Assembly (NCBI RefSeq): GCF_019634815.1
Contig: NZ_JAHCAP010000014.1
Span: 1-64,000 of the forward strand
DNA: 64,000 nt
Direction of reading: 5' to 3'
Origin: Dokdonella sp.
GTDB taxonomy: Bacteria > Pseudomonadota > Gammaproteobacteria > Xanthomonadales > Rhodanobacteraceae
Shown: positions 9,837-19,200 of the stretch, piece by piece
Numbering within the stretch: the first letter of the stretch is position 1
Layout of the letters: each line of letters begins with the position of its first letter
The notes under the pieces: model-generated
Seen by the model: only the letters and a program-made list of their open reading frames with translations
Told to the model about the DNA's origin: nothing
Databases searched by the model: none
Made by a program: the position numbers and the translations under genes

Positions 9837-10238
9837 ATGACCACGACCGACGCCCGCCTCGACCTGCGCCTGAACACCCGCGACAAGGATCGCATTGCCC
9901 GTGCTGCCGCACTGCGCGGCGTGCCGGTGTCGGCCTTCGTGCGCGATGCTGTCCTGCGCGAGGCCGAAGCCGCGATGGCCGCCGACATGACCATCACTCT
10001 GTCGCCCGAAGAGACGCGTCGTTTCCTCGCCGCGCTGGATAAACCGTTCAAGCCCAACGCCAAACTGAAGCAGGCGATGGAGCGCGGCCTCACGCTGGCG
10101 GTCCGGAGCGCCGAGACCGATGCCGCGCCGGCCGGCCCGACCCCAAGCTGGACCGGTTCGCTCGCCGATCGCCTGCGCGGCCGCGCCAGCTCGCGCATGA
10201 GCACCGACGACATCATGAAGCTGACGCGCGGCGCATGA
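9837..10238 (+). CDS. Ribbon-helix-helix antitoxin (DUF1778-like) with an extended tail
   Basis: The 133-residue protein begins with a DUF1778-type ribbon-helix-helix domain (about 5-45: ARLDLRLNTRDKDRIARAAA). The conserved DUF1778 segment LSPEETRRFLAALDKPFKPN follows. DUF1778 antitoxins normally end near residue 95; this one adds about 40 residues finishing SLADRLRGRASSRMSTDDIM, which resembles toxin-binding tails of antitoxins paired with PIN toxins. Its stop overlaps the PIN gene start (ATGA). DUF1778 proteins usually partner GNAT acetyltransferase toxins, so the pairing is unusual. Confidence 0.8.
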   Translation: MTTTDARLDLRLNTRDKDRIARAAALRGVPVSAFVRDAVLREAEAAMAADMTITLSPEETRRFLAALDKPFKPNAKLKQAMERGLTLAVRSAETDAAPAGPTPSWTGSLADRLRGRASSRMSTDDIMKLTRGA

Positions 10239-10639
10239 GCCGCGTCCTGGTGGATGCCAACGTCCTGCTGGACGTGCTGACCGAAGATCCACGCTGGTAT
10301 GCGTGGTCGGCCGGCCAGCTCGATGCCTGCGCCGAGCGCGCGCAACTGTGCATCAATCCCATCGTCTATGCCGAAGTCTCGGTCGGGTTCGAGCGCATCG
10401 AGCAGCTGGACGACGCGCTGCCGCCGGATGCCTTCATCCGGCTGGAATTGCCATGGGAAGCCGGCTTTCTCGCCGGCAAGGCGTTCCTGCACTACCGCCG
10501 TGCCAAGGGCGCGCGCACCTCGCCGCTGCCGGATTTTTACATCGGCGCCCATGCTGCGATTGAGGGCATGACGCTGCTGACACGCGATGCGCGGGGCTAC
10601 CGCACCTACTATCCGAAGCTGGAAATCATTAGCCCGTGA
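10235..10639 (+). CDS. PIN-domain (VapC-like) ribonuclease toxin
   Basis: PIN-fold endoribonuclease, 134 residues. The acidic active-site residues are placed as in VapC toxins: Asp in LVDANVLLDVL near the N-terminus, Glu in INPIVYAEVSVGF, and Asp in SPLPDFYIGAHA, followed by the LLTRDARGYRTYYPKLEI ending common in this subfamily. VapC-type toxins cleave tRNA or rRNA and are neutralised by the adjacent antitoxin. Translationally coupled to the upstream antitoxin gene. The substrate cannot be told from sequence. Confidence 0.88.
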   Translation: MSRVLVDANVLLDVLTEDPRWYAWSAGQLDACAERAQLCINPIVYAEVSVGFERIEQLDDALPPDAFIRLELPWEAGFLAGKAFLHYRRAKGARTSPLPDFYIGAHAAIEGMTLLTRDARGYRTYYPKLEIISP

Positions 10640-10897: not shown

Positions 10898-11185
10898 TCA
10901 TGTACGCGCGTGTCCGCCAATCGGGCGCACCTTCGCGCGGAACCGGCGCTGCGCTTGCCACAAGTCCTGGTCGGCTTGCATGGCATACCAGCTTCCGGGG
11001 ATCGTGCCCAGCGCCTTCGATAGCCGCGAGTCCATGTCTGCGCTGACAGCGGCGGAACCGTTCAACACGCGCGACAACGCAACGCGTGTCACGCCCAAGC
11101 GGTTCGCCGCTTCAGTCACGGTGATTTCAGTCAGCCATTCGCGCAGCACTTCGCCGGGGTGTGGGGGGTTGTGCATGGTGGCCAT
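10898..11185 (-). CDS. higA: HigA-family helix-turn-helix antitoxin
   Basis: HTH_XRE antitoxin of 95 residues. It has the HigA hallmark HNPPHPGEVLREWL at the N-terminus and the DNA-binding segment TVTEAANRLGVTRVALSRVLNG, followed by the MDSRLSKALG helix. The start is placed at ATG 11185 (MATMHNPPHPG) by family length; the frame is open further upstream into higB. It lies downstream of a HigB-like gene in the toxin-first order typical of higBA. The 258 bp between it and the PIN gene (10640-10897) shows no recognisable gene. Confidence 0.87.
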   Translation of the reverse strand: MATMHNPPHPGEVLREWLTEITVTEAANRLGVTRVALSRVLNGSAAVSADMDSRLSKALGTIPGSWYAMQADQDLWQAQRRFRAKVRPIGGHART

Positions 11186-11450
11186 GATGTTTGCCCTGGT
11201 GATAGTCCTGATAGTCCACAAGTATCGCGTCGCCATTCTCGAAGGTGAAGGTCAACCGCCAGTTGCCGCTAACCCAAACCGCCCAATGGTCGGCAAGCCT
11301 GCCGTGCAGCGGATGCAGCTTCCAACCGGGTGCGGCCGTGCCGCTTTGCATCGCGTGCGTCGCGCCCAGTGCAGCGGGAAGATGGGCGCATGATGCGGCG
11401 CGTGTGCCCGCGTGGATCATCGCGTGCCATGCAGCCAGCAGGCAGGGCAC
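11127..11450 (-). pseudogene. higB: HigB-like RelE-superfamily toxin, probably N-terminally truncated
   Basis: The C-terminal half matches HigB toxins (PGWKLHPLHGRLADHWAVWVSGNWRL, DAILVDYQDYH). Upstream of about residue 20 the expected start (a basic Met-Ile-x-Ser-Phe type segment leading to the first strand) is missing; the frame opens at 11450 or 11420 with unrelated residues. Normal family members stop right after the DYH motif. Here translation runs 23 residues further and overlaps higA by 59 nt, so the native stop has been lost. It may be inactive. Confidence 0.62.
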
Positions 11451-11474: not shown

Positions 11475-11906
11475 TCAATCGACGCACAGGAAGTCAGTCA
11501 ATTTCCCGTTCCTGATTTCGACAAAGCAGCCGAACGGGTTGTCGTTCCTGCTGCATTGCCCGACAGCGGCTTGCGCAAGGGGTCGTTTCTGCTCGTCGCC
11601 CTCGAACAGGCACCTGCCCTTGCACTGACCTGAATCGGTGCATGGCTGGCCGCCATCGGCGTAGGGCGTGATGCAGCGGAACCTTCCCATCCTGCCGGCC
11701 TGCGCCATTTTCCCGCCGCCTTTCTCGCAGGCGGTTCTGGCGTCCGTTGCGGGTTCGCATCTCTCTTTCTCCGCGTTCCAGATGCCTCCCCATTGTTCCG
11801 TGCACTGGCTGGCGTCGGACGCCTTGCACGGACTCGGCGTGGTCGCGATGAGGCAGATCAGGGCGAAAGCGGATGACAGCCGGCGGAAGAACCCACGGGT
11901 CGACAT
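11475..11906 (-). CDS. Small secreted cysteine-rich protein, function unknown
   Basis: 143-residue protein with a clear signal peptide (RRLSSAFALICLIATTPSPCKA) and a mature part with about nine cysteines. It includes the motif GGQPCTDSGQCKGRCLFEG, found in secreted proteins of Xanthomonadales, probably forming disulfides in the periplasm. ATG 11906 is supported by GAGGAG 7 nt upstream; the frame is open to 12053 without similarity. It follows the Mur-ligase paralogue on the same strand after 152 bp. No function can be assigned. Confidence 0.7.
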   Translation of the reverse strand: MSTRGFFRRLSSAFALICLIATTPSPCKASDASQCTEQWGGIWNAEKERCEPATDARTACEKGGGKMAQAGRMGRFRCITPYADGGQPCTDSGQCKGRCLFEGDEQKRPLAQAAVGQCSRNDNPFGCFVEIRNGKLTDFLCVD

Positions 11907-12058
11907 GGACGCGCTCCTCGAGAAAACCAATCCACGGGAAACCCGCAGCAGCGGCGCCACGGCGGGGCGCCGGACGAGCAGCAAGCGGGCATGGACAGCG
12001 TGCAACGCCTTCATGCGTGTAGCGGGGTTCACGGGAGCGTCGCGGCTGGGCACACGAC

Positions 12059-13840
12059 TCAGCCAGGCGCGGCGGGCAGCGGCGTGCCCGGCGCCCAGTG
12101 CTGCGCCTGCATCGCCGCGAGCAAGGCGCCCACCTTGGGTCGCTCGAGCTTGCCGTGGATCGGCAAGACCAGAAGATCACCCGGCCGTGCCCAAGTGAGC
12201 AGGGTGCGCACGGCGGTGTATTCGTCGAGGCAGGTGACGAGCTCTTCATCGCGCAGTCCGCGGCGCAGCAGTTCCTCGCGCAGCAGCGCGGGCACTTCGC
12301 CGACTGCGCGTCCGCGCAGCATGCCGCTCATGTCCTTGAGCACGATGCGGTTGGGTGCGAATTCGGCGGCGACGCCCGCCAGTTCGCGGATCTCGCCATC
12401 GGCGCGGTTGCCGGCCTGGCCGAGCAGCAGCGCCAGGCGTCCGCCTGAGGTCGGCCTCGCCAGTTGCAGCAGACCGCGCAGGCCGTCGGGATTGTGCGCG
12501 TAGTCGACGAGCACGCGCACACCGCCCAGTTCGAAGTCCTGCAGGCGTCCCGGATTGTCCTGCGGCGAGTGGCCGAAGCGTTCGAGCACGCTGCGCAGCT
12601 GCGCGTCATCCACGCCGAGCAGGTGCGCGGCGATTGCCGCGGCGGCGATGTTGGCGATGTTGTAGCGCGCGCTACCGCGCAGGGTGAGCGGCATCTGCTC
12701 GATCATGCCTAGGTCGTGCGTGTCGGCGCCGTGTTCGAGCACGAGACGATCATCGCGCACGCCGCAGGTGATGCCGCCCCGCGCGCGATGCTCGCGCAGC
12801 AGCGGTGCGTCGGCATCGAGCGCGAACCACGCCAGCGGCACCGAGATGTTGGCTGCGTGGCGTACGAGCAGGGCATCGTCGGCGTTGAGGATCAGCATGC
12901 CGTGTGCATCGAGTGCGCGCGCGACCGCGAACTTGGCGAAGGCCAGATCGTCGAGGTCATGCACGCCGTATTCGCCGAAGTGATCGTCGCTGAGGTTGGT
13001 GATGATCGCGCAGCGCGCATGCGTCGGCGCCAGACCGCGACGCAGCAGGCCGCCGCGCGCGGTTTCCAGGATCGCCATCTCGACACCGGCTGCGCGCAGC
13101 GCCTCGCGCGCGCCGGCGGGGCCGGAATAGTCGCCCGCGGCGAGTTCGCGCGTGTCGACATGGACACCGTCGGTGCAGGTGTAGGCGGTGTGCCAGCCCT
13201 GGGCGCGCGTGAGCGCGGCGAGCAGGCGCGTGGTGGTGGTCTTGCCATTGGATCCGGTCACCAGCGCCACCGGCACGTCGTGCAGCGCGGACCAGTCGAG
13301 CGTTGCCGGGTCGGGCAGGGCGTTGCGCGCGAAACTCCGGCAGCCATTGCCCATGCCGATCGACAGCGTGTCCTCGTCGATCAGCACGCCGAGCCCTCGC
13401 GCTTCGGACGCGGCGACCAGTGCGCACAGCGTCGGATCCCGCTCGGCGCGCGCGTGCGCCTGGAGCGTATGCAAGGCCAGCTGCGTGTCCCATGCCGCCG
13501 GATGGCCGGGCGCGAACAGCAGGGGCGGTTCGTGGTCGGCGGCGAGCAAGGCGGCCAGCCAGGCCCATTCATTGACCTCGGTCGCGCTGAGCAACTGATC
13601 GAGCGGCGCGCTGAATGCGAGCGAGGCATCGCGCGCATGGGCACGCGCGACCAACACCTGCTCGGGCCAGTCCAGCCGGCGGGACATCTCGACGACGCGC
13701 TCGCGCCAGCCAGACACCAGCGCAGCGTCGATCGCAACGCCGCAGGTCTCGAGCACGGCGCCGACCTCGGCGAAATACGGGTTGGGGCCGGTGAGACGGC
13801 GCGAATCCTCGAAGGGCAGGGACGGCGTGGCGGTGTTCAG
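12059..13840 (-). CDS. Mur-ligase-like cyanophycin synthetase paralogue
   Basis: About 593 residues related to the C-terminal ligase half of cyanophycin synthetase and lacking its ATP-grasp domain. It has an N-terminal domain of about 190 residues, the P-loop TGSNGKTTTTRL at about 194-205, ETARGGLLRRG, the LSDDHFGEYG region and DYAHNPDGL in the C-terminal domain. It is thus probably an active ATP-dependent amide ligase, substrate unknown. No ATG, GTG or TTG exists at the expected N-terminus. A CTG at 13840 sits 6 nt after the strong ribosome site GGGAGGG and overlaps the cphA stop as CTGA, so CTG may be the start. Confidence 0.82.
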   Translation of the reverse strand: MNTATPSLPFEDSRRLTGPNPYFAEVGAVLETCGVAIDAALVSGWRERVVEMSRRLDWPEQVLVARAHARDASLAFSAPLDQLLSATEVNEWAWLAALLAADHEPPLLFAPGHPAAWDTQLALHTLQAHARAERDPTLCALVAASEARGLGVLIDEDTLSIGMGNGCRSFARNALPDPATLDWSALHDVPVALVTGSNGKTTTTRLLAALTRAQGWHTAYTCTDGVHVDTRELAAGDYSGPAGAREALRAAGVEMAILETARGGLLRRGLAPTHARCAIITNLSDDHFGEYGVHDLDDLAFAKFAVARALDAHGMLILNADDALLVRHAANISVPLAWFALDADAPLLREHRARGGITCGVRDDRLVLEHGADTHDLGMIEQMPLTLRGSARYNIANIAAAAIAAHLLGVDDAQLRSVLERFGHSPQDNPGRLQDFELGGVRVLVDYAHNPDGLRGLLQLARPTSGGRLALLLGQAGNRADGEIRELAGVAAEFAPNRIVLKDMSGMLRGRAVGEVPALLREELLRRGLRDEELVTCLDEYTAVRTLLTWARPGDLLVLPIHGKLERPKVGALLAAMQAQHWAPGTPLPAAPG

Positions 13841-16635
13841 TCGTCGCCCTCCCGCGACAGGCGGATGCCGCGTTCGTCGCGCACGATGTTGCCGAGCGCG
13901 GCGAAGCTCGCCTCGTCGAACACCGGTTCGGGCGTGGCCACGGGTGCCGGCGCCGGAGCGGGTGCGACCTTGCGCGGCGCGCCATCGGCCTGGAAGCGGA
14001 TGATCTGCTTCCACGAGCGCACCAGCGAATCGGCAAAGATCAGCAGCAGGTCACCGGCGCGGCCCATCGCCAGAGCGGCGTCGATCGCCTTCTGTTCGTC
14101 GGGGATTTCCTCGATCGCCTCCTTGGGCACGCCTGCGGCAACCAGCGCGCGCGCGATGATGCGCGGCACTTCATCGCCATCGCGCCCGCGCAAGGCATCG
14201 TCGCGCCGGCAAATGTAGTGGTCGAAGCGACCCGCGACCGCCTGCGCGATCGCCACCAGGTCCTCGTCGCGGCGATCGCCGGGGCCGGCGACCACGACGA
14301 TGCGCCGCCCGCTGACGTCCAGCCGCGTGGCCAGATCGGCCATCGCAGACACCGCGGCGGCATTGTGACCATAGTCGAACAGCACCTTGAACGGATGCTC
14401 GTCATAGACGTTCATGCGCCCCGGCGCCTGGAAGAACGTCGTGTCGAAGGTGCGCAGGCCCTGGCGGATCGCGTCGAGCTTGATCCCGAGCGAATACGCC
14501 ATCGCCGCCGCGAACATCGCGTTCTGCACGTTGTGCAGCGCGCGGCCCTCGAGCGTGGCCGGGATCAGGTGCGTCCACAGCAGCGGGATGTGGCTGTTCT
14601 TGTCGTAGAGCGTGATCATCGCGCCGTTGACGCCGGCTTCGAGCGCGCAGGCGCGGCCACCTGCGCGCACGTGCTCGCGTACCAGGGCGTGCGAGGGATT
14701 CATCGTCACGTAGCAGATGATCTTCGCGTCGGTGTAGCCCGACATCTTGAGCACATTCGGATCATCGGCATTGAGCACTGCGCAATCCTGCGCCACCTCG
14801 ACGACGATGCGCTTGACTTCGGCGAGTTGCTCGAGCGAGTCGATTCCCTTCATGCCCAGATGGTCGGACTGGATATTGAGCACCGCGCCGACGTTGACGT
14901 GGCGCACGCCCATGCCCGCGCGCAGCAGGCCGCCGCGCGCGGTTTCCAGCACGGCGACGTCGATGCTCGGATCGGCCAGCACCATGCGCGCCGAGACCGG
15001 CCCGGTCATGTCGCCCTCGACGGTGCGCTGCCCGTCGATGTAGACGCCGTCGGTCGAAGTCAGGCCGGGCGTATGTCCGGCCATCTTGGTGATGTGCGCG
15101 AGCATGCGCGCGGTGGTGGTCTTGCCGTTGGTGCCGGTGATCGCCGCGATCGGCACGCGCGCGGGCGTGCCCGGCGGAAACAGCATGTCGATCACCGGGC
15201 CGGCGGCATCGCGCGGCGTACCTTCGCTCGGGCTCACGTGCATGCGAAATCCCGGTGCGGCATTGATCTCGCAGATGCCGCCACCGGCCTTGCGGTAGCT
15301 CTCGGCAATGTTGGGGCTGAGGAAATCCACGCCACCGACGTCGAGCCCGATCGCGCGCACCGCGCGCTCGGCCATGTCGCGATTGTCGGGATGGATGATG
15401 TCGGTGACATCGGTGGCGGTGCCGCCCGTGGACAGGTTCGCGGTCGAGCGCAGGTAGACGATTTCACCGGCCCTGGGCACCGAATCGGCCGTGCTGCCGA
15501 TGCGTGCAAGCATCATCTCGGCCTCGCGGTCGAGGTTGATGCGCGTGAGAACCTTCTCGTGGCCGATGCCGCGGCGCGGATCCTGATTGACGATGTCGAT
15601 CAGCTCGCGGATCGTGCGCGTGCCATCGCCAACCACGTGACCGGGCGTGCGACGCGTCGCCGCGACCAGTTGACCATTGATCACCAGCAGGCGGTGGTCA
15701 TCACCCTGCAGGAAGGTTTCGACGATCACCGAACGCGAATGCTCGCGCGCGGCGACAAAGCCCGCGCGCACTTCCTCGTCGGTGTTGAGGTGGATCGAAA
15801 TCCCGCGGCCGTGATTGCCGTTGTAGGGCTTGGTCACCACCGGGTAGCCGAGCCGGCGCGCCGCACGTACCGCCATGTCCTCGCTCTGCACCAACTCCTG
15901 CTGCGGCACCGGCAGGCCGAGCGAGCCGAGGATCTTGTTGGTCTCTTCCTTGTCGCTGGCCAGTTCCACCGCGATGTGCGAGGTCTTGCCGGTCACCGTG
16001 GCCTGGATGCGCTGCTGGTACTTGCCATGCCCCAGTTGCACCAGCGACTGGTCATTGAGGCGCAGCCACGGAATGTCGCGCTGCTCGGCGGCGCGCACCA
16101 GCGAGGCGGTCGAAGGTCCGAGCGCACGCCGCTGCGCGTAGCGGATGAACTCATCGCGCGCCTGCGGCCACGACCAATCGGCCTCGATGTCGCTCGCGCT
16201 GCGCAGCTTCACCGGCAGCAGCGAGGTGATGAGCTTGAGCGCGAGCTCGCCCGCGGCAATGCCTTCCTCGCGCTGCGTGTATTCATAAACCACGCTGTAG
16301 ATGCCCGGCCGATCATCGCTGATGCTGCGCGTCTTGCCGAAGGTCACGTCTTCGCCGGCGATGTTCTGCAATTCCAGCGCGACGTGCTCGAGCACATGGC
16401 CGAGCCAGGTGCCTTCGTCCTCGCGCATGCGGCGCAGGAAGCCGCCGGGTTCGCGGTAGGAACAGCCATGCTCGGCCAGGCCGGGCAGGGCCTCGACAAG
16501 ACCACCGATGAAGGATTCGCCGAGGCGGGCGGTGGGCCAGTGCTCCAGCTCGCCCAGATCCAGTTCCAGTTTTATGACCGGAAAATGCGCGTAGGTCGAT
16601 GGGCCGACGTAGACCGAACGATTGAGGACGCGCAT
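13837..16635 (-). CDS. cphA: Cyanophycin synthetase CphA
   Basis: 932 residues, within the range of characterised CphA1 enzymes (about 870-900), with three modules. These are an N-terminal domain (1-160), an ATP-grasp domain (about 210-480; TKPYNGNHGRG near 267, EINAAPGFRMH) and a Mur-ligase-like domain (P-loop GTNGKTTTARM near 498, IQSDHLGMKG, DYGHNAAAV). The enzyme adds Asp to the backbone and Arg to its side chain, making the cytoplasmic reserve polymer multi-L-arginyl-poly-L-aspartate. The C-terminus has an Ala/Pro-rich linker. All catalytic loops look intact. It lies 76 bp after cphB. Confidence 0.96.
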   Translation of the reverse strand: MRVLNRSVYVGPSTYAHFPVIKLELDLGELEHWPTARLGESFIGGLVEALPGLAEHGCSYREPGGFLRRMREDEGTWLGHVLEHVALELQNIAGEDVTFGKTRSISDDRPGIYSVVYEYTQREEGIAAGELALKLITSLLPVKLRSASDIEADWSWPQARDEFIRYAQRRALGPSTASLVRAAEQRDIPWLRLNDQSLVQLGHGKYQQRIQATVTGKTSHIAVELASDKEETNKILGSLGLPVPQQELVQSEDMAVRAARRLGYPVVTKPYNGNHGRGISIHLNTDEEVRAGFVAAREHSRSVIVETFLQGDDHRLLVINGQLVAATRRTPGHVVGDGTRTIRELIDIVNQDPRRGIGHEKVLTRINLDREAEMMLARIGSTADSVPRAGEIVYLRSTANLSTGGTATDVTDIIHPDNRDMAERAVRAIGLDVGGVDFLSPNIAESYRKAGGGICEINAAPGFRMHVSPSEGTPRDAAGPVIDMLFPPGTPARVPIAAITGTNGKTTTARMLAHITKMAGHTPGLTSTDGVYIDGQRTVEGDMTGPVSARMVLADPSIDVAVLETARGGLLRAGMGVRHVNVGAVLNIQSDHLGMKGIDSLEQLAEVKRIVVEVAQDCAVLNADDPNVLKMSGYTDAKIICYVTMNPSHALVREHVRAGGRACALEAGVNGAMITLYDKNSHIPLLWTHLIPATLEGRALHNVQNAMFAAAMAYSLGIKLDAIRQGLRTFDTTFFQAPGRMNVYDEHPFKVLFDYGHNAAAVSAMADLATRLDVSGRRIVVVAGPGDRRDEDLVAIAQAVAGRFDHYICRRDDALRGRDGDEVPRIIARALVAAGVPKEAIEEIPDEQKAIDAALAMGRAGDLLLIFADSLVRSWKQIIRFQADGAPRKVAPAPAPAPVATPEPVFDEASFAALGNIVRDERGIRLSREGDD

Positions 16636-16711
16636 GGAGCCTCCGCTGTGAGATCAGGTTTGGATGATGCCTGCAATCGTGGTCTTGGGCATGTTGCGAG
16701 TGCAGCGGTGC

Positions 16712-17563
16712 TCAGGAATCGAGCTTGCTTGCGGCGAGCGAACCCGACGAGGCGCGGCGCGTGTGCAGATTGAAGGTTGCGCCGGCGACGAGGATGTGGA
16801 TCTTGAGACCGAGCAGGCACACTGGCTCGCTTTCGCCGGCCTGATCCATCGAGGAGAACTCCAGTTCGCTGGCATCGACCACGGTGATCCCGCCCGAGCC
16901 CTCGACTTCGAGCGTGTTGTCGGGGCGGATGAACGCGGCGGTGTCCTCGTCCAGACCGATGCCGACGGCGAAGGGGTTGTAAGCCAGCGCCGCGAGCAGG
17001 CGCCCGAGGCGATCGCGCTGGCGAAAATGCTGGTCGATGACGAAGCGGTTGGTGAGGCCCAGGCCAGGCGCGAGACGCACGCTCGATGCGGTCGGCGAGC
17101 CGCCTTCCTTGCCGAACGCGATCATGTGTTCGGACAGGATCGCCGCGCCCGCACTGGTGCCGGCGACGTGCACGCCCTTGGCGTTCTGCAGGCGGATGAG
17201 TTTCGCGATCGGCGTGCCACCGAGCACGGTCGACAGGCGCAACTGGTTGCCGCCGGTGAAGAAAATGCCGTTGGCGCGTTCGAGACGTTCGAGGCGGTTC
17301 TGTTCGGCGGCATCGCGGCGGGTATCGAAGTCGAGCGCGGTGACCTGGCCCGCGCCGAGCTCGGAAAAAATGTGCTCGTAGCGCTTGCCGGTATCGGCGC
17401 GCTGGCTTGCGGTCGGGATCACCACGATGTCGGCGTCATCGCCGCCGCACAGTTCGACGAAGCGCGTGAGGATGCGCGTGTCGTGTTCCTTGTGCTCGGC
17501 GCCGCCGATCGGCACGATCCAACCGCGCTCGCTTCCCTCACGTACCCTGCTTGGACACATCAT
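16712..17563 (-). CDS. cphB: Cyanophycinase CphB
   Basis: Peptidase family S51 serine exopeptidase, 283 residues, that cuts cyanophycin into beta-Asp-Arg dipeptides. The nucleophile is in GTSAGAAILSEHM at about residue 136. Other S51 features are IGGAEHK near the N-terminus, FFTGGNQLRL and the RDRLGRL substrate-binding region. Start at 17563 (two Met codons in a row, either possible). It follows iadA after 17 bp and precedes cphA, so synthesis and breakdown genes share one transcription unit. Confidence 0.94.
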   Translation of the reverse strand: MMCPSRVREGSERGWIVPIGGAEHKEHDTRILTRFVELCGGDDADIVVIPTASQRADTGKRYEHIFSELGAGQVTALDFDTRRDAAEQNRLERLERANGIFFTGGNQLRLSTVLGGTPIAKLIRLQNAKGVHVAGTSAGAAILSEHMIAFGKEGGSPTASSVRLAPGLGLTNRFVIDQHFRQRDRLGRLLAALAYNPFAVGIGLDEDTAAFIRPDNTLEVEGSGGITVVDASELEFSSMDQAGESEPVCLLGLKIHILVAGATFNLHTRRASSGSLAASKLDS

Positions 17564-17580
17564 CTACCCCGGTTTCAATC

Positions 17581-18762
17581 TCAGGTTTCTCGGCGTGCGC
17601 TTTCGAAGGTTCCACGAATCTGCAACTGGCCATCGCGCACATGCACGACACCGCCGGCGATCACGAGATCGGCCTTGCCATCGGTGTCGAGTGCGACGAG
17701 ATCGGCATCGGCGCCGACTTCGATGCGGCCCTTGCGCGCCAGACGCAGCAGTCGCGCGGGATTGCTGGTGAATGCCGGCAGCGCCGTCGCGAGCGGCACG
17801 CCGCGCGCGAGCAGGTCGTTCAGCGTGGTCAGCAAGGCGCCGGAATCGCCCACGTCCATGTGCATCATGTGGCCGTCGGCGTCGAAGCAGGGCAGTGAGC
17901 CACCCGCATCGGAGCTGATGCTGACGCGCTCGCCGGGTGCGCCGCTGTCGAGATAGCGGATCAATGCGTCGCTCGCGCTCCAGGCATCTTCGCCTTCCTC
18001 GACCGGGAATGCGGTGAGGTCGATGTGGCTTCCGCCGCGCGCGAGCGCGATGGCTTCCTCGAACAGCGCCTTGCGCCGATTGACATGCGTGGGCTGGAAC
18101 ACGCGCGCGGGCAATTCGCTGCCCGCCAGTGCCTGACGCACGAGTTCGAGGCCACGTGGACCGTCACCCAGATGCAGGTGGACGATGCCCGCCTTGCCGG
18201 TGAGCAGGCCCGCGACATGCACTTCGGACGCCAAGCGCAGCAATTCATCGAGCGTAGGCTGGCTCGAACGGTGATCGCTCAGTGCCACCTCGCCCGCGCC
18301 GATCAATGCGTCGATGCAGACCAGATCACTGCGCACGGTGCCGGTGAGCGTTGCCAGCGGCAGGTGATAGCCGCCCGCGTAGGCGAACGCCGACAGGCCT
18401 TCCTCGCGCAGCGCATGCACGCCGGCGAGCAGCTCGCGCGGCCCGCGCATGACATCGTCGGTGCCCAGCAAGCCCACCACGGTGGTGATGCCGTGGGCGG
18501 TGTAGCGCGACAGCCCCAGCGGCGGCACGCGCGTGTGATAGCCGCCTTCGCCGCCGCCACCGGTCACATGCACATGACCGTCGATCAGGCCGGGGATCAG
18601 GCGTCGGCCTTCGAGGTCGATCTCCTGCACCGCGAGCGCGGCGGGCAGGTCCGGGCGTTCGTTGCCGAGCCAGAGGATGCGCCCGCCACCCAGCAGCAGG
18701 TGGCACACACCCAGCGCGGCGGGCGCAAAAACCTCGGCGTTGTGGATCAGCAGCAGGCTCAT
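17581..18762 (-). CDS. iadA: Isoaspartyl dipeptidase, likely beta-Asp-Arg hydrolase
   Basis: Amidohydrolase-superfamily zinc peptidase, 393 residues. Metal ligands are visible at HVHVTGG (His63, His65), in the HLHLGDG and QPTHVNR segments, and at the catalytic Asp in SISSDAGGS, matching E. coli IadA. IadA cleaves beta-aspartyl dipeptides; beside cyanophycinase its natural substrate is probably beta-Asp-Arg, releasing free Asp and Arg. First of the cyanophycin genes in transcription order, 18 bp after rnk. Confidence 0.93.
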   Translation of the reverse strand: MSLLLIHNAEVFAPAALGVCHLLLGGGRILWLGNERPDLPAALAVQEIDLEGRRLIPGLIDGHVHVTGGGGEGGYHTRVPPLGLSRYTAHGITTVVGLLGTDDVMRGPRELLAGVHALREEGLSAFAYAGGYHLPLATLTGTVRSDLVCIDALIGAGEVALSDHRSSQPTLDELLRLASEVHVAGLLTGKAGIVHLHLGDGPRGLELVRQALAGSELPARVFQPTHVNRRKALFEEAIALARGGSHIDLTAFPVEEGEDAWSASDALIRYLDSGAPGERVSISSDAGGSLPCFDADGHMMHMDVGDSGALLTTLNDLLARGVPLATALPAFTSNPARLLRLARKGRIEVGADADLVALDTDGKADLVIAGGVVHVRDGQLQIRGTFESARRET

Positions 18763-18780
18763 CCGCGCAAACGCCTCCGC

Positions 18781-19200
18781 TCAGCGGTGCAGTTGTCCCG
18801 CCGCTTCGGGCTGGAAGGTGACTGCCTTCACGCGCAGGCGCAGCGGTTGCCCGTCGGGTGTCTTCCAGTCGATCGTCTGGCCGACGGTGAGTCCGAGCAA
18901 GGCCGCGCCGACCGGGGCGAGCACCGAAACACGGCCCTTGGCGGCATCGGCTTCGGCCGGATAGCACAGCGTCAGGGTGTGTTCCTTTCCACCCAGCTCC
19001 TCGACACAGGTCACGGTCGAGTTCATCGTCACGAGATTGCCGGGGATCTTGTCCGGCGCCAGCACCTGGGCACGATCAAGTTCCGCGCGCAGCGCCTGCG
19101 CGGTCGCGTTGTGCTGCCATTGCGGCGTGTCGAGCAGCGCATCGAGGCGATCGAAATCGCGGCTGCTCAAAGTGATGCTGGGTGACGCCTGCTTGGACAT
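18781..19200 (-). CDS. rnk: Rnk-like nucleoside diphosphate kinase regulator (GreA/B C-terminal domain)
   Basis: 139 residues with an N-terminal helical segment and a C-terminal GreA/GreB FKBP-like domain (VTCVEELGGKEHTLTLCYP, VSVLAPVGAALLGLTVGQTI), the architecture of Rnk. Rnk binds RNA polymerase but lacks the antipause acidic tip. ATG 19200 (MSKQASPS) is chosen by family length; the frame is open to 19248. It appears to lead the cyanophycin operon, which is suggestive but may be simple adjacency. A 7-bp inverted repeat (19221-19240) lies in its 5' leader. Confidence 0.85.
   Translation of the reverse strand: MSKQASPSITLSSRDFDRLDALLDTPQWQHNATAQALRAELDRAQVLAPDKIPGNLVTMNSTVTCVEELGGKEHTLTLCYPAEADAAKGRVSVLAPVGAALLGLTVGQTIDWKTPDGQPLRLRVKAVTFQPEAAGQLHR

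Follow-up and report, generated by a model that had tools for sequence, protein, structure and literature searches.

Two kinds of cyanophycin synthetase have been described, CphA1 and CphA2. The cyanobacterial CphA2 polymerises beta-Asp-Arg (PMC9262961, PMC9427784) and has lost the P-loop and the lid of its M domain (PMC9427784). In the M domain of TeCphA1, contacts to ATP or Mg are made by the P-loop, K499, T500, T522, E558 and, in the lid, R731 and H748, the adenine being sandwiched by F692 and N497 (PMC9427784); in SuCphA1, D585 and H586 were mutated to inactivate the M domain (PMC9262961). The primer-making motif of the N domain has been published as Cx19HxxEH (PMC9262961). With regard to gene organization, a complete-genome survey (PMC10206079) gives cphA1 and cyanophycinase genes as clustered in 81% of the genomes having both, and cphA1-cyanophycinase-iadA as clustered in 37 of the 231 genomes carrying all three; in Lysobacter, the cphA-cphB pair was reported as a two-gene cluster (PMC4742617), and a CphA1-CphA2 pair was noted in Sideroxydans (PMC5178258).

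The window analysed here (64,000 nucleotides of contig NZ_JAHCAP010000014.1 from Dokdonella sp.) contains a genuine gene cluster for the synthesis and recycling of cyanophycin, a nitrogen-storage polymer. This interpretation has good support, each of the catalytic families scoring above its curated cut-off. As in the Leucothrix mucor-type cphA1-cyanophycinase-iadA clusters of the survey, the three enzymes are encoded by adjacent genes (PMC10206079). Since cphA-cphB-iadA clusters were already published there, their occurrence in the window is ordinary; the new part of the cluster is a CphA paralogue, termed CphM, that consists of an N-domain-like region and an M domain. The available text of the survey makes no mention of an M-only CphA paralogue (PMC10206079), and no description of such a protein was found in the open-access literature, where an earlier mention is nevertheless possible.

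Organization of the locus

The genes follow each other in the order rnk-iadA-cphB-cphA-CphM on the minus strand (window positions 19200-12059; see Table 1), in agreement with the original prediction of five genes on one strand, their families being assigned by curated models. The intergenic gaps from rnk to cphA measure 18, 17 and 76 nt, and cphA and CphM overlap by 4 nt: at the junction, GGGAGGGCGACGACTGA, the cphA stop codon TGA overlaps a CTG triplet (window positions 13837-13840). No ATG, GTG or TTG was found close to the point where the family homology of CphM begins, leaving this CTG, with GGGAGGG upstream, as the only plausible start. The CTGA junction recurs in several congeners (L004, L005, L007, L010) and is replaced by TTGA in L033, so that in these related species CphM would start with CTG or TTG. 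A scan for sigma-70 promoter-like sites, which is weak in GC-rich DNA, gave 0 sites inside the cluster versus 0.7 expected; two terminator-like sites were detected, fewer than in shuffled sequence, and an Rfam search of the window from 11 to 20 kb returned no match.

Table 1. Features of the cyanophycin locus (positions in the window).
Feature	Position	Strand	Remarks
rnk-like gene (nucleoside diphosphate kinase regulator family)	18781..19200	-	PF14760, PF01272 and NF004396 above cut-off
iadA, isoaspartyl dipeptidase	17581..18762	-	TIGR01975
cphB, cyanophycinase, peptidase S51	16712..17563	-	TIGR02069; GTSAGA nucleophile motif
cphA, full-length cyanophycin synthetase 1, N + G + M domains	13837..16635	-	TIGR02068
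CphA N-domain motif codons, C58-x21-HVLEH, putative primer-making endo-cyanophycinase site	16384..16464	-	
CphM, CphA paralogue without ATP-grasp domain, 593 aa	12059..13840	-	CTG start overlapping cphA stop
CphM P-loop GSNGKTTT, residues 196-203	13232..13255	-	
CphM amino-acid-site loop KDMSGMLRGR	12308..12337	-	equivalent of MurE DNPR and CphA DDxLRGR

The cyanophycin synthetase and the degradation pathway

The CphA of the window is a CphA1 as defined by N, ATP-grasp G and Mur M domains together with a TIGR02068 score of at least 850 bits, the cut-off of the model (1113 bits, model positions 2-861), and aligns over its full length with TmCphA1, AbCphA1 and SuCphA1. Its N-domain residues C58, H80, E83 and H84 align with C59, H79, E82 and H83 of SuCphA1. 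The C-x19-HxxEH motif is present in most, not all, CphA1; the spacer of 21 residues in the window (a shared two-residue insertion compared with the published 19) is common to most CphM-associated CphAs. As the residues of the N motif, the ATP-grasp domain and the M residues are all kept, a replacement of a missing CphA activity by CphM is ruled out.

Among the degradative enzymes, CphB matches TIGR02069 with 263 bits (cut-off 126.6) and carries its nucleophile serine within GTSAGA, and IadA matches TIGR01975 with 398.8 bits (cut-off 331). The metal ligands of IadA (HxH, His, His) are present, and Glu replaces the carboxylated Lys when the protein is read against LmIadA: the latter has E159 at this position, so that both proteins share a Glu at the bridging position (PMC10206079). 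Of the two isoaspartyl dipeptidase types known, the window's genome yielded IadA only; because no gene of the IaaA family was matched there, IadA is the likely beta-Asp-Arg dipeptidase. The three enzymes make up the known route of synthesis and degradation, in which CphA extends the chain and adds Arg, CphB cuts cyanophycin to beta-Asp-Arg, and IadA splits the latter into Asp and Arg. The original prediction had taken the joint presence of synthesis and breakdown genes as a sign of turnover rather than storage. This does not follow: such co-location is common (see the above-mentioned 81% of genomes with both genes; PMC10206079) and in consequence no argument for turnover over storage.

The Rnk protein contains Rnk_N (PF14760) and GreA_GreB (PF01272) domains, scores 162.5 bits against NF004396 (cut-off 109) and is encoded by the only rnk of the genome. 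Its assignment to the operon in the original prediction did not hold beyond the closest relative: rnk adjoins the cluster in 2 of 31 loci, i.e. the window and its nearest relative (L138), which rules it out as a conserved operon part. Its inclusion is probably incidental because the adjacency is limited to these loci.

Domain architecture and structural model of CphM

The original prediction had listed the last gene product as a second Mur-ligase-like protein. Mur_ligase_M and Mur_ligase_C domains are indeed present, and are its only domain matches, but this description falls short of a protein that is a CphA paralogue without ATP-grasp domain: the domain search gave no ATP-grasp match in CphM, and its TIGR02068 match is confined to model positions 477-846 (333 bits, below the cut-off of 850), so that it lacks both the G domain and the score that define a CphA1. 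The M domain itself is complete with regard to P-loop, Mg ligands, DH pair and lid Arg/His.

An AlphaFold model of CphM (based on 28 orthologues; pLDDT 93, pTM 0.93) contains the lid. In structural alignments it matched TeCphA1 first (Z 38.1, 3.0 Å over 547 of 592 residues), CphM residues 7-577 spanning the TeCphA1 chain 1-877, whereas MurE structures ranked behind with Z 26.5 and lower. In the profile alignment, CphM 114-168 joins CphA 152-209 (E 3e-5) and homology resumes at the P-loop; the N-terminal model of CphM also picks up the N-terminal region of the complete CphA at L101 (E 4e-5). The N-terminal alignment of CphM and CphA rests on profile and structure, as plain pairwise MAFFT misaligns that part. 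From the structural and profile alignments, CphM therefore looks like a CphA without the roughly 280-residue ATP-grasp domain, in which the N-domain scaffold is kept. The HxxEH peptidase motif is absent from the N-terminal 190 residues of 28/28 CphM sequences, and a function of CphM as primer supplier via an N-domain peptidase is thus ruled out.

Compared with the CphA1 structures (PDB 7wae, 7lg5, 7lgn), CphM shares the N-domain scaffold, the M core and lid, the P-loop, the DH pair and the ETARGG motif; it differs by the lack of ATP-grasp and HxxEH, by a changed amino-acid loop and by its length (about 593 versus 870-930 residues). CphA2 is likewise a reduced CphA paralogue; however, it keeps an active ATP-grasp domain and is devoid of the M-domain P-loop and lid, while CphM shows the opposite pattern with a full M domain and no ATP-grasp. 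Next to CphA1 and to CphA2 with its lost side-chain half, CphM would represent a third kind of cyanophycin synthetase, without the backbone half. CphA2-like paralogues, with an M match ending before the lid, were observed directly upstream of cphA at betaproteobacterial loci (L065, L067, L069, L071, L072, L073, L082, L083, L089, L099, L101). With MurE ligases, CphM has the Mur fold and the ATP chemistry in common, but it possesses the CphA-type ETARGG and LRGR motifs. A MurE-like cell-wall ligase is ruled out by score (119.5 bits against the MurE subfamily model, cut-off 257), by motif (loop MLRGR instead of DNPR) and by the tree, in which CphM groups with CphA and not with MurE.

Distribution, linkage and evolution of CphM

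Matches were present in 113 of the 299 genomes sampled from the order, and about 89 of the 113 carry CphM, which in this sample was told apart from CphA by score only. A second match, corresponding to CphA, was found in 88 of the 89 CphM genomes; the remaining genome (G047) contains a CphA N-terminal fragment at a contig end, and an occurrence of CphM without CphA is thereby ruled out for it. In the wider class sample, seven other genomes contained both genes and ten CphA alone; none contained CphM alone. This obligate co-occurrence with cphA, like the gene content, the domain architecture and the conserved catalytic residues, was established by computation. At all 31 loci whose contig includes cphA, the next gene downstream of it on the same strand is CphM (cphB is present at 26 of these loci and iadA at 17). 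In G047 and G056 (L159 and L160; one family), CphM adjoins an ABC-transporter-like ORF away from cphA.

CphM was also found in Acidobacteriota, Myxococcota and Actinomycetota; named carriers include a Lysobacterales MAG, an Acidobacteria MAG and Plesiocystis pacifica. The contig pattern scan, which employed generic P-loop and ETARGG patterns only, returned mostly CphA and MurE. In Nocardioides and Terrabacter, M-only proteins are encoded convergently to cphA (L068, 7527-9248; L081, 9723-12020); they are members of the CphM clade with a more divergent N-terminus. CphM forms a single clade including these actinobacterial proteins (SH-aLRT 98). CphA as one clade was not rejected in the tree test (p-AU 0.62), CphM having arisen before or within CphA1.

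CphM evolves faster than CphA: identity to the nearest relative amounts to 85% for CphM and 97% for CphA, and the dN/dS ratio against this relative is 0.22 for cphM versus 0.065 for cphA. cphM is thus under purifying selection that is weaker than that on cphA, and its reading frame is intact in nearly all genomes.

Active site and proposed function of CphM

Across 35 CphM sequences from several phyla, N198, K200, T223, E259, D286, H287, R432 and H449 are invariant. This set corresponds to N497, K499, T522, E558, R731 and H748 of TeCphA1 plus the D585/H586 pair; the position of TeCphA1 T500 is occupied by Thr or Ser. Likewise, the P-loop residues G196, N198, G199, K200 and T202, aligned with the TeCphA1 P-loop 495-501, are invariant in the 35 M domains. 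The amino-acid site deviates: the DDxLRGR loop of CphA lines up with the DNPR motif of MurE, and its CphM version is two residues longer and often reads xxYLRGR; CphM has other residues in place of H508, S542, R778 and D781 (TeCphA1 numbering), which are conserved in CphA; and R268 is invariant in CphM only, CphA having mostly Ala, Glu or Ser at that position. The Arg equivalent to that of the MurE DNPR motif is kept (R509).

From this residue pattern, CphM is inferred to be an active ligase whose amino-acid or acceptor site has changed. An ATP-dependent ligase with a catalytic role on cyanophycin is, on the sequence evidence, a reasonably probable assignment. Beside CphA, CphM would spend ATP on activating the carboxylate of an Asp side chain, or a similar one, and would join an amino acid to it; the acceptor would most likely be the beta-carboxyl of Asp, in cyanophycin or in a CphA-made precursor, with e.g. 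chain ends or unsubstituted Asp as alternatives. Since CphM has no ATP-grasp domain, it should not extend the Asp backbone; and because its M-domain loop differs conservedly from that of CphA, it probably works with another amino acid or another acceptor. A more specific proposal can be put forward only tentatively: as a functional counterpart in mirror image to CphA2, CphM would be a second side-chain ligase dedicated to cyanophycin metabolism and would equip the polymer or the chain ends with a non-arginine amino acid. Against the main interpretation count the faster evolution of CphM compared with CphA and its separation from cphA in G047 and G056, and a change in the loop is in itself no proof of another substrate; furthermore, a second M domain is not obviously needed beside the intact one of CphA.

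Alternatively, CphM might duplicate the reaction of the CphA M domain, i.e. the addition of Arg onto Asp, and provide extra capacity or repair of unsubstituted Asp. The shared fold, the identical ATP and catalytic residues and the retained R509 are consistent with such a duplicate, which we consider possible but doubtful in view of the replaced H508, S542, R778, D781 and DDxLRGR loop and of R268, invariant only in CphM. A non-catalytic partner, for instance a subunit that modulates CphA by binding the polymer or forming a complex, would agree with the CphA-like N domain, with the observation that CphM was never seen without CphA and with its faster evolution; it is nevertheless unlikely, because invariant ATP, Mg and catalytic positions (one of them Thr or Ser) in 35 sequences from several phyla are unexpected in a dead enzyme. 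More improbable still is that the product of CphM is some other small molecule or dipeptide, with nothing but the operon in common with the cyanophycin genes: the amino-acid loop unlike that of CphA and the absence of linkage in two genomes would fit this explanation, yet the co-occurrence with cphA is strict and the linkage is kept despite another, convergent orientation in the Actinobacteria (L068 and L081). That the locus is just a usual cphA-cphB-iadA cluster ending in a duplicate under decay, as might be suspected from the published clusters (PMC10206079) and from the faster evolution of CphM, is highly improbable given the purifying selection (dN/dS 0.22), the frames intact in nearly all genomes, the wide distribution and the invariant catalytic residues.

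Conserved with most of this CphA clade, a CphM acting as ligase on cyanophycin would alter the view of polymer composition, priming or repair in heterotrophs. If the decoration with an amino acid other than Arg were true, many heterotrophic Lysobacterales and several other phyla would make an undescribed cyanophycin variant, and CphM could offer a route to cyanophycin with other side chains.

Neighbouring genes

Directly downstream of CphM, the minus strand encodes a small protein rich in cysteine (11475-12053), which probably has a signal peptide and gave no Pfam match. Further downstream of the cyanophycin operon, a HigB-like toxin (PF05015) and a helix-turn-helix antitoxin form a HigBA-type pair (10898-11450, minus strand). 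A TacA1-like antitoxin (PF08681) followed with a 4-nt overlap by a PIN-domain protein (PF01850) constitutes a toxin-antitoxin pair on the plus strand (9837-10639).
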